Position numbers and translations under genes: made by a program. A DNA stretch of 64,000 nt from an uncultured Flavobacteriales bacterium (GTDB taxonomy: Bacteria; Bacteroidota; Bacteroidia; Flavobacteriales_D; Sanyastnellaceae): NCBI GenBank assembly GCA_938085105.1, contig CALKGK010000044.1:1-64000 (forward strand). Reading direction: 5' to 3'. The stretch's first letter is position 1. Each line of letters opens with the position of its first letter. Positions 1-45,778 of the stretch are shown piece after piece. Under the pieces are notes generated by a model. That model was not told the origin of the DNA. It worked only from the letters and a program-made list of their open reading frames with translations, and searched no databases.

Positions 1-441
1 TGGGCTTTTGCGCTCTAAATGGATAGGTCGTTCTCCGGGTTGAAAATTTGGGCTACTTAAGCCGATAGCATTTTCAGAGTGAGGACGGAGAGCGGGGAAT
101 GAGGAGTTTGAATTTCCTTGTTGATGGGTTTTTGCGCTCTAAATGGATAGGTCGTTCTCCGGGTTGAAAATTTGGGCTACTTAAGCCGCTAGCATTTTCA
201 GAGTGAGGACGGAGAGCGGAGAATGAGGAGTTTGAATTTCCTTGTTGATGGGCTTGTGCGCTCTAAATGGATAGGTCGCTCTCTGGGTTGAAAATTTGGG
301 CTACTTAAGCCGATAGCATTTTCAGAGTGAGGACGGAGAGCGGGGAATGAGGAGTTTGAATTTCATTGTTGATGGGTTTTTGCGCTCTAAATGGATAGGT
401 CGTTCTCCGGGTTGAAAATTTGGGCTACTTAAGCCGATAGC
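1..441 (+). repeat. Tandem array of a 124-base repeat carrying the 20-base core motif
   Basis: Three full 124-base units begin at 1, 125 and 249, and a fourth, starting at 373, breaks off at 441. Units differ by only a few substitutions. Each carries the core GGGCTACTTAAGCCGATAGC (50-69, 174-193 with one change, 298-317, 422-441). The unit is quasi-palindromic around the core: CGTTCTCCG (29-37) faces CGGAGAGCG (86-94), GAAAA (42-46) faces TTTTC (71-75), and GCTA faces TAGC inside the core. The window edge cuts the array, so the true copy number is unknown. There is no open reading frame of note. The array ends exactly at the core, which suggests the core is a boundary or recombination point. 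Confidence 0.95.
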
Positions 442-483
442 TGAACTCCGCTATTAATTTCACCCTCTCGATACAACACAAAA

Positions 484-39108: not shown

Positions 39109-39112
39109 GTTG

Positions 39113-39255
39113 GCTATCGGCTTAAGTAGCCCAGATTTTCAACCCGGATAAAACCTCTTTGTTTTAGGGTCTAAAAGATCGAACGGTGCTCCGAAGAGCT
39201 CATCACTCTCCGCTTTCTACCTTCGCTCTGCATATGCTATCGGCTTAAGTAGCCC
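39113..39255 (-). repeat. Two minus-strand copies of the 20-base core with a diverged 124-like unit
   Basis: Cores in the reverse orientation lie at 39113-39132 and 39236-39255, 123 bases apart. The sequence between them is a diverged copy of the 124-base unit of the left array read on the other strand: shared blocks include TTTTCAACCCGGA after the first core and CTCTCCGCT plus CGCTCTG before the second. It sits only 5 bases after the receptor terminator, between convergent genes. Confidence 0.9.
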
Positions 39256-40983: not shown

Positions 40984-41006
40984 AGTCGCGAAGTTAAGAA
41001 ATGAGA

Positions 41007-41026
41007 GCTATCGGCTTAAGTAGCCC
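41007..41026 (-). repeat. Core motif copy, left end of the IS1595-like element
   Basis: Exact reverse-strand core. GCTA and TAGC can form a 4-base-pair stem with a 10-base loop. Confidence 0.9.
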
Positions 41027-41124
41027 ACTTTTCTGATTCAGAATAGGACAATGACTTTGTGAATGACTGGTTCTAATTTGTTTGTGGTGAGTGGTTTAGT
41101 GCTTCGATTCTGTAATTTTCTAAA

Positions 41125-42015
41125 ATGTTATATCGTGAAAATAAACAGCAATTTTCACCTTTTCCGAATCATCTGAATAACGAGAGGAAATGCTTAGAAT
41201 ATCTTATTTACTGCAAATGGGGCTCCGGCTACAAATGTAGGAAATGTGGAAACTTGAAGTTTGGGAGAGGGAAAAAATGGCATCATCGCAGATGTACAAG
41301 ATGCAGATATGATGAATCCCCAACAGCGAGAACTCTTTTTCATAAAATAAAGTTCCCTTTAACCAAAGCCTTCGGAATGGTGAATGAATTGGTCCTTGAA
41401 GAAGAAGGAAGATCTTCAATCGCTCTTGCAGTCAAGTATCGGGTTTGTCAGGAAACTGCTTGGTTCTTTAAGAGGAAGGTTCAACAAGCAATGGCAAGGT
41501 TTGAAACAAAGACCTTCATGTCTTCTGCCGAGAAAACAATCTTTATTAGGAGCAGGTCGCTCCTTGGGAAGAATATGCTATTAGAAGCTCAATGGGAGCG
41601 TGCAACTCGTATCGACTTTACGTTGAATTCTATTCCTTCGGAAAATGAATCGGCGAATTATTTGGCAACGGCTAAGTCAGTTCTTCAAAAGAAAGTTGGT
41701 CAAATTGATCGAGAAATGCGGCCCAATGAAGTCGCTTTAAGACAGCATAAATTAGCTCGAGGCTCGTTTTGGAAGCAGAACTTGATTTTTGGAGTCTCTA
41801 ATGAACCCCGTGAGGTGGGGGAATACCGAACTGAGCTTGAGGCATGGGTTCGCAAAACTCATTTCCATATCTCAAAAAAGCATCTCTTCTATTATTGCTG
41901 TGAATTCAATTTTAGAAAGTGGAAGAAAGTAAGCCTTGAAATAGGACCTAAGGAATTAATAAAGTCCATGGTTCTTCACCCTTGGCTTCGATTCGCAAAA
42001 ATTTCGGCGACGTAA
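41125..42015 (+). CDS. IS1595/ISXO2-like transposase-related protein, probably catalytically inactive
   Basis: The 296-residue protein has the N-terminal zinc ribbon of IS1595-family transposases (C38, C41, C57, C60), then the family's helical segment (TARTLFHKIKFPLTKAF...GRSSIALAVKYRVCQETAWFFKRKVQQAM). The C-terminal block WVRKTHFHISKKHLFYYCCE (241-260) and the following FNFRKW match the end of ISXO2-like domains. In between, the expected catalytic pattern is not recognisable: the VExDE-type segment appears as SAEKTIF (134-140), and the HxNxxEx(W) block is PREVGEYRTELEAW (228-241); only D195 might be a retained Asp. It is intact and uninterrupted, so it seems kept for a function. Its stop codon (42013-42015) lies inside the right repeat. 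Confidence 0.8.
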   Translation: MLYRENKQQFSPFPNHLNNERKCLEYLIYCKWGSGYKCRKCGNLKFGRGKKWHHRRCTRCRYDESPTARTLFHKIKFPLTKAFGMVNELVLEEEGRSSIALAVKYRVCQETAWFFKRKVQQAMARFETKTFMSSAEKTIFIRSRSLLGKNMLLEAQWERATRIDFTLNSIPSENESANYLATAKSVLQKKVGQIDREMRPNEVALRQHKLARGSFWKQNLIFGVSNEPREVGEYRTELEAWVRKTHFHISKKHLFYYCCEFNFRKWKKVSLEIGPKELIKSMVLHPWLRFAKISAT

Positions 42016-42024
42016 GCCGATAGC
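42005..42024 (+). repeat. Diverged core motif, right end of the IS1595-like element
   Basis: Core with three changes (CGGCGACGTAAGCCGATAGC). It includes the TAA stop of the transposase-like gene, and the change GCTA to GCGA weakens the hairpin stem. Confidence 0.85.
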
Positions 42025-42117
42025 TTCTTTTTTAGGAATGATGAGGTTTATCAACAACTTTCGAGAAGCTTGTGAAAAGTTCCATCCAAATAAGCTTCCT
42101 AAACCAAAAGGGTTGTC

Positions 42118-45262: not shown

Positions 45263-45287
45263 GTTTCTATCGTTATCTGTTTTTAAA

Positions 45288-45307
45288 GCTATCGGCTTAA
45301 GTAGCCC
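45288..45307 (-). repeat. Core motif copy, minus orientation
   Basis: Exact reverse-strand core, followed by CAAATTTTTTATTGG, close to the flank of the copy at 39236. Together with the plus copy at 45427-45446 it makes an inverted pair in the same outward arrangement as the transposase-element ends. Confidence 0.9.
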
Positions 45308-45426
45308 AAATTTTTTATTGGCTTGATGTCTGATTTTTTGGGAAACGATCTTTCCTGACTTTACCTAGATCCTAGTCATATTGTTTAGGGTTTTTTACTA
45401 TTGAATAGTTGTCATGATTTCGGTTT

Positions 45427-45687
45427 GGGCTACTTAAGCCGATAGCCAAGAAGTCTCATTGGTAAGGCTCCCAAAAAAACGGAACCACGTGTCCTTCTCA
45501 AGATCAAGTACTTGTATTTCAGTGGTTTATTCAGGAGTGTGTTTGGGCTACTTAAGCCGATAGCAAAGAATAATGACTGCTCGGAATCATCCATCAAACA
45601 CACTAGTCCCTTCATCTAGTATTAGCTCAAACCGTTGTTTTTTAGGTTCTTGAGGTGTTTTCCATTTCGGCTACTTAAGCCGATAGC
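45427..45687 (+). repeat. Three plus-strand core copies spaced 118 and 123 bases
   Basis: Cores lie at 45427-45446, 45545-45564 and 45668-45687. Spacing is close to the 124 of the left array, but the sequences between them are unrelated to it and to each other. The last copy begins CGGCTA and is followed by CG, giving a perfect 6-base-pair CGGCTA/TAGCCG stem, a base change matched on both sides. The rest of the 573-base gap 45205-45778 holds a terminator and the minus-strand copy, and no gene was seen. Confidence 0.9.
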
Positions 45688-45778
45688 CGTCCGCTCACCC
45701 CAAATACCTCACCCATTAAAACCCAATTTCGTTTTCTCTCCACTCTCCACTATCTTTCGCCCCTAAACGCCAAACATC

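Follow-up and report, generated by a model that had tools for sequence, protein, structure and literature searches.

Putative domesticated DNA-binding proteins derived from IS1595 transposases, and dispersed copies of their own end motifs, in two Flavobacteriales genomes

Does a transposase-like gene that lies between inverted copies of a short motif, itself scattered between the surrounding genes, belong to a system of the REP/RAYT kind, and what would its protein do with these copies? In REP/RAYT systems vertically kept transposase-like genes are bounded by inverted copies of a dispersed short element, and a genome holds several paralogues, each with its own element and with arrays adjoining the gene (PMC2817692, PMC8049555). 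In bacteria they are the known example of a transposase that is retained together with a scattered family of its own ends, and a search of the open-access literature found no such system based on IS1595, which is not proof of absence. The locus studied here lies in a stretch of 64,000 nucleotides (the window) from an uncultured marine Flavobacteriales bacterium, corresponding to contig C44 of the 3.17-Mb draft genome G000 (99 contigs, 99% complete). Its features are as follows.

1 to 442, minus strand: composite tandem array, four A motifs alternating with four B motifs (TATCCATTTAGAGCGCA)
51, 175, 299 and 423, minus strand: motif A copies
39112 to 39254, plus strand: two-copy array of motif A with a spacing of 123 bp, directly past a terminator-like hairpin
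41006 to 41025, plus strand: upstream copy of the cognate motif, AGCTATCGGCTTAAGTAGCC
41056 to 41087, plus strand: TTTGTGnATGA direct repeat with a 21-bp period, in the promoter region of the window gene
41125 to 42015, plus strand: gene for the IS1595-derived protein of 296 aa, with zinc ribbon, HTH and degenerate DDE region
42006 to 42025, minus strand: downstream inverted motif copy, AGCTATCGGCTTACGTCGCC, overlapping the last codons of the 296-aa gene
45287 to 45688, both orientations: array of four A motifs (one plus, three minus), downstream of carB
39112, 39235 and 45287, plus strand: motif A copies
45428, 45546 and 45669, minus strand: motif A copies

Read as 41007–41026 and 42005–42024, the ends of the unit are inverted repeats matching at 17 of 20 positions, as the original prediction had stated, and the match rises to 18/20 when they are read as 41006–41025 and 42006–42025. 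That prediction had also counted ten further intergenic copies in the window; exactly ten were found, all outside coding frames and each with 0–2 mismatches, and the REP/RAYT-like layout proposed on this basis, in which inverted copies of a scattered intergenic element enclose a transposase-like gene, is indeed present. Across G000 the 19-mer of motif A has 16 exact matches and 22 at ≤2 mismatches, whereas the reversed pattern used as a control gives 1 match even at 3 mismatches; chance repeats as the source of the copies were ruled out by control patterns. The array at 1–442 is made of 124-bp units with a spacing of 42/82 and runs to the contig end. The other two arrays both have orthologous arrays on contig C88 of G001 (JAQWFN01, 'Flavobacteriales bacterium cluster1_bin.1'), a sister species, likewise marine, and the only other genome of the same genus among those searched.

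The protein itself is IS1595-like, as had been proposed, with weak matches in two regions. It contains the zinc ribbon cysteines C38, C41, C57 and C60, an HTH, a degenerate DDE region that lacks D1 and D2, the first two catalytic aspartates of the IS1595 DDE motif, and a C-terminal helix with E260. The zinc-ribbon model PF12760 matches it weakly, with an E-value of 5e-4 that fails the Pfam cut-off, and the four cysteines are invariant in an alignment with clear IS1595 members. The terminal part of the IS1595 DDE domain is matched weakly as well; in the two genomes the Pfam IS1595 DDE model detects, below cut-off, the last helix only, in three family proteins. The AlphaFold2 model of the window protein has a mean pLDDT of 83 and a pTM of 0.83. 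Foldseek against PDB gave no significant match with it: the best hit has E 0.38, and a Mos1 transpososome ranks second. Z-scores from VIA-align reach 3.3 at most, with Transib at Z 3.1 (rmsd 7.1, 142 aligned residues), and no solved structure resembles the model closely enough to assign its middle domain, for which an RNase H fold was the candidate.

What had been described as a single gene is single in the window only. With the window protein as query against 100 relatives, we found four full-length family members in G000 and five in G001, plus one C-terminal remnant of a family gene in G000; everything else that matched was an IS1595-type element or a fragment. All nine ORFs are intact (286–311 aa), and the other eight proteins are 38–52% identical to the window protein. 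The nine form one clade with support 100/100 and a long stem, separate from the elements that carry D1 and D2. Within this clade, support is moderate for the pairs A, D and E. For pair C it is weak (48/54), so that synteny is the main ground for calling these two genes orthologous. Four orthologue pairs are flanked by the same core genes in both genomes, with neighbours that are mostly 55–97% identical, the window pair itself being 50% identical; vertical descent in a conserved neighbourhood, the hallmark used for domesticated transposases, thus holds for these four syntenic pairs. The fifth gene (class F) was lost in G000, where about the last 60 codons are left at the orthologous site. This remnant (G000:C35:68.3-69.05 kb, L093) is fused in frame to an acyltransferase-like gene and has the end motif TATCCATTTAGGTCTCC. 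PADLOC found no match of the gene to known defence genes.

The active transposase that the original prediction implied finds no support, as D1 and D2 are absent in 9/9 proteins. Related elements that bear them have VDE at D1, TDGW or a similar motif at D2, and a C-terminal E. The nine proteins retain the C-terminal E, the zinc ribbon and the HTH, share 46 invariant residues, and have an H.KARG..W-like motif peculiar to them, parts of which are invariant. With D1 and D2 gone in all nine, spread by the window protein's own DDE chemistry is therefore unlikely. A transposase acting in trans was sought in both genomes within the IS1595 family and not found; neither G000 nor G001 holds a complete or above-cut-off IS1595 DDE domain.

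Every family gene is paired with its own motif. Upstream there are 1–4 direct copies, often two to four, and an inverted copy accompanies the stop codon in seven of the nine genes. A copy at the position seen in the window gene was recognised in 5/8 of the other family genes, that of the C45 gene lies 17 bases further out, and the class C genes of both species have the motif upstream only. The classes are listed below.

Class A, genes C44/C88: TATCGGCTTAAGTARCC
Class C, genes C36/C94: TATCCATTTAVGTCGCC, upstream only
Class D, genes C37/C82: TATTGACTTAMGTCGCC
Class E, genes C45/C102: around ACGGCTTACGTCGCA / ACCGGCTTAAGTCGCA
Class F (TATATA), gene C62, G001 only: TATATACTTAAGTCTCA
Class B, sites at 9–397 of the window, G000:C35:75.3 kb and C35:102.8 kb: motif as in the array at 1–442

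Class B is abundant in G000, and no gene with such ends was found; G001 has one hybrid class B copy, TATCGGCTTAGAGCGCA, at an orthologous array. Motif and gene co-vary between the species: class D reads TTACG in G000 and TTAAG in G001, the same at gene ends and in dispersed copies, and the class F motif accompanies its gene in G001 and is missing from G000, which keeps only a remnant of that gene. The hairpin or palindrome that had been taken for the common property of the motif is not general, since only class A folds fairly (–6.2 kcal/mol); a hairpin or REP element as a general feature was rejected, the other classes folding at 0 to –3.3 kcal/mol.

The motifs occur where the genes occur. A generic form, TATNNRYTTAVGTMKCM, has 48 matches in G000 and 49 in G001, and 0–3 in each of 98 comparison genomes of the same family and order, so that abundance in genomes without the gene, which would have spoken against the pairing, was looked for and seen in none: only the two gene-bearing genomes are rich in the motif. 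As arrays often end contigs, these copy numbers are lower bounds. Most copies lie in intergenic arrays of 2–8, mainly in one orientation and irregularly spaced at 33–138 bp, often directly past a terminator-like hairpin. The arrays sit in convergent, tandem and divergent gaps, and hence no single regulatory position is seen. Some are composite, with A alternating with class B in 124-bp units or D alternating with E; at the HtrA locus the D/E alternation is kept in both species although the spacers are quite different. A pyrimidine-rich tract (CTCTCCGTCCTCATTCTCACTCTGAAAA) precedes many class A, B and C motifs in both species (G000 arrays C36:8.8 kb, C43 and C94; G001 C73 and C41).

Most comparable arrays occupy orthologous places in the two genomes, and there the motifs are conserved against scrambled spacers. 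At 11 orthologous intergenic sites, chosen for having motifs in both genomes, the mean best match of a G000 motif in G001 has 1.3/17 mismatches, versus 6.0/17 for spacer 17-mers and 6.4–7.7 for shuffled motifs; tandem copies are not independent, and the sample is therefore one of sites, not of motifs. Other arrays are lineage-specific: the one at G000:C35:75.3 kb is absent in G001, and the pyrD array of G001, at a locus with a break in synteny, is absent in G000. In G000 three places contain a 124-bp A/B unit, with mostly 66–77% identity from one place to another. Together, the lineage-specific arrays and the recurring unit indicate that turnover continues, and that copies have spread or been turned over. 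A protein that does no more than bind would leave this unexplained.

Where do the motifs come from? By eye, they align with the terminal inverted repeats of the related elements L117, L118 and L127, GGTTTAACGGCTTACATC of L117 with class E and TAGGATTACCCATTTAGATCGC of L127 with class C, and on this ground the motif is derived from the terminal inverted repeat that IS1595-type elements of Bacteroidota carry. Members of the IS1595 family are described as having a DDE motif, target duplications that are usually 8 bp long and, in most groups, a zinc domain (PMC8101967). Our family resembles it in the zinc ribbon, the HTH, the C-terminal helix with E and the ends (TAGGATTACCCATTTAGATCGC of L127 versus TTATCCATTTACGTCGCC), but lacks D1 and D2 and detectable target duplications, and differs also in having one syntenic copy per class and solo ends scattered in arrays. 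L115, L116, L122 and L127, related elements with D1 and D2, lie between perfect 8-bp duplications; none was found at the seven DDE-less units with both ends recognised, where the best candidates have 2–5 mismatches in 8 (class C units, in which no 3' end is recognised, stand outside this comparison). The family is thus descended from IS1595 and departs from it in catalysis and target duplication.

DDE-less IS1595 units are also found in Pollutibacter soli and Ferruginibacter. These too have lost D1 and D2 while keeping intact frames and inverted ends; they differ in forming a separate clade within the D1/D2-bearing elements, and had no array copies at the sites inspected. Paired ends without arrays in this Chitinophagaceae clade suggest that loss of catalysis alone does not entail dispersal. 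When a generic pattern was drawn up for the terminal repeats that such elements carry, four element-bearing genomes gave no clear excess of matches; the pattern is loose, and the result correspondingly weak. Frames of ~630–680 aa in Cytophagales (L164, L166, L171, L172, L174, L175, L177-L181, L183, L184, L187 and L188) have a long stretch, probably a coiled coil, followed by a zinc ribbon of IS1595 type and an HTH, apparently another exaptation of the IS1595 DNA-binding module. Flammeovirga aprica (L130-L152) has many similar IS1595 copies with a frame of only 143–180 aa, several of them close to contig ends.

A further signal is the repeat TTTGTGnATGA-N10-TTTGTGnATGA, which lies upstream of most family genes and also at about 20 other loci in each of G000 and G001, several copies being just upstream of varied genes. 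G000 has 25 sites at ≤2 mismatches, against 4 for the control even at 3 mismatches. It is possibly an undescribed regulon signal, with a faint likeness to DnaA boxes.

How, then, should the partnership be read? On the sequence evidence we think it somewhat probable that these are domesticated, non-cutting DNA-binding proteins derived from IS1595, co-evolving with dispersed putative binding sites. IS1595-type transposases would have lost their catalytic aspartates and kept end recognition, and each member would most likely bind the form that the ancestral terminal inverted repeat has taken in its own lineage: in its own promoter (the 1–4 direct copies), usually at its stop codon (the one inverted copy), and in several intergenic arrays. 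The proteins may then act as autoregulated transcriptional or DNA-architecture factors, not as mobilising enzymes, with effects on neighbouring genes or on DNA structure. Were genes and solo ends instead functionless relics of an ancestral IS1595, kept similar by recombination among repeats, the origin of the motif in a terminal repeat would be accounted for, old insertions could yield solo ends and tandem arrays, and the Chitinophagaceae units exist without dispersed copies. Nine frames have nevertheless stayed intact (about (61/64)^290, ~1e-6 per neutral frame) while spacers diverged to near chance level, the motif classes track the genes across species, and the promoter-region repeat is kept in most, which makes this account doubtful at best.

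Unlikely as well, if a little less so, is a mobilisation of RAYT type, in which the proteins move or copy motif-bounded DNA by non-canonical chemistry or with a partner, the arrays being the products. The inverted motif pairs that bound the genes, as in RAYTs (Nunvar 2010, PMC2817692), the lineage-specific arrays, the 124-bp composite at several loci and a renewal of motifs that matches the present ends of the gene all fit it. Against it stand the missing aspartates in 9/9 proteins and the want of any complete IS1595 DDE domain in either genome, the orthologous and thus old position of most arrays compared, the absence of target duplications at the seven units with both ends, and the class C genes without a 3' end copy in both species; similarity within arrays could moreover come from tandem duplication and conversion. 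Mobilisation by the family proteins is unsupported; the spread of arrays may be due to tandem duplication and conversion, or to a residual activity. An ordinary active insertion sequence in few copies, suggested by the inverted repeats at the ends and by a transposase-like gene whose length is typical of an IS, was rejected as extremely improbable: many near-identical full units with target duplications were looked for and did not occur, each class having one full-length copy, and the genes lack catalytic residues, encode paralogues only 38–52% identical to the window protein, and are syntenic in two species.

Several known systems come close. With REP/RAYT the family shares kept genes, inverted flanking copies (seven of nine genes, those of class C lacking the 3' copy), paralogue-specific elements and arrays adjoining the genes. 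RAYTs are, however, HUH Y1 enzymes with conserved catalytic residues, and REPs are palindromic and often number hundreds, whereas our proteins are of the zinc-ribbon IS1595 type with D1 and D2 lost, and their motifs are mostly non-hairpin, number tens and form mainly direct tandem arrays. The family is not a member of REP/RAYT, because two defining features fail: in place of a HUH Y1 transposase with its catalytic tyrosine there is an IS1595-like protein, and in place of a high-copy palindrome or hairpin, about 50 generic copies per genome. TldR, which is nuclease-dead, descends from TnpB. Like our family, for which DNA targeting is presumed, it is a mobile-element enzyme turned non-cutting DNA-targeting regulator; TldR proteins are unrelated, RNA-guided transcription factors (PMC13418256), whereas recognition here would presumably be of an old terminal repeat by protein alone.

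A bolder proposal, which we put forward tentatively and consider improbable rather than remote, is a DDE-type partnership of REP/RAYT kind that arose independently, in which degenerate IS1595 proteins co-evolve with arrays of their own terminal repeats that are still spreading despite loss of the triad, two classes acting jointly on composite arrays. All of this is based on two draft genomes of one genus. On the main reading, as domesticated binding proteins, an arrangement like that of REP/RAYT would have arisen a second time from an unrelated source, here with catalysis lost while recognition and co-evolution with the sites appear to continue. The several paralogous protein–site pairs in two species offer a natural series for studying how ends of IS1595 type are read, and for asking if the scattered ends of transposons turn into sites of regulation or of DNA architecture.
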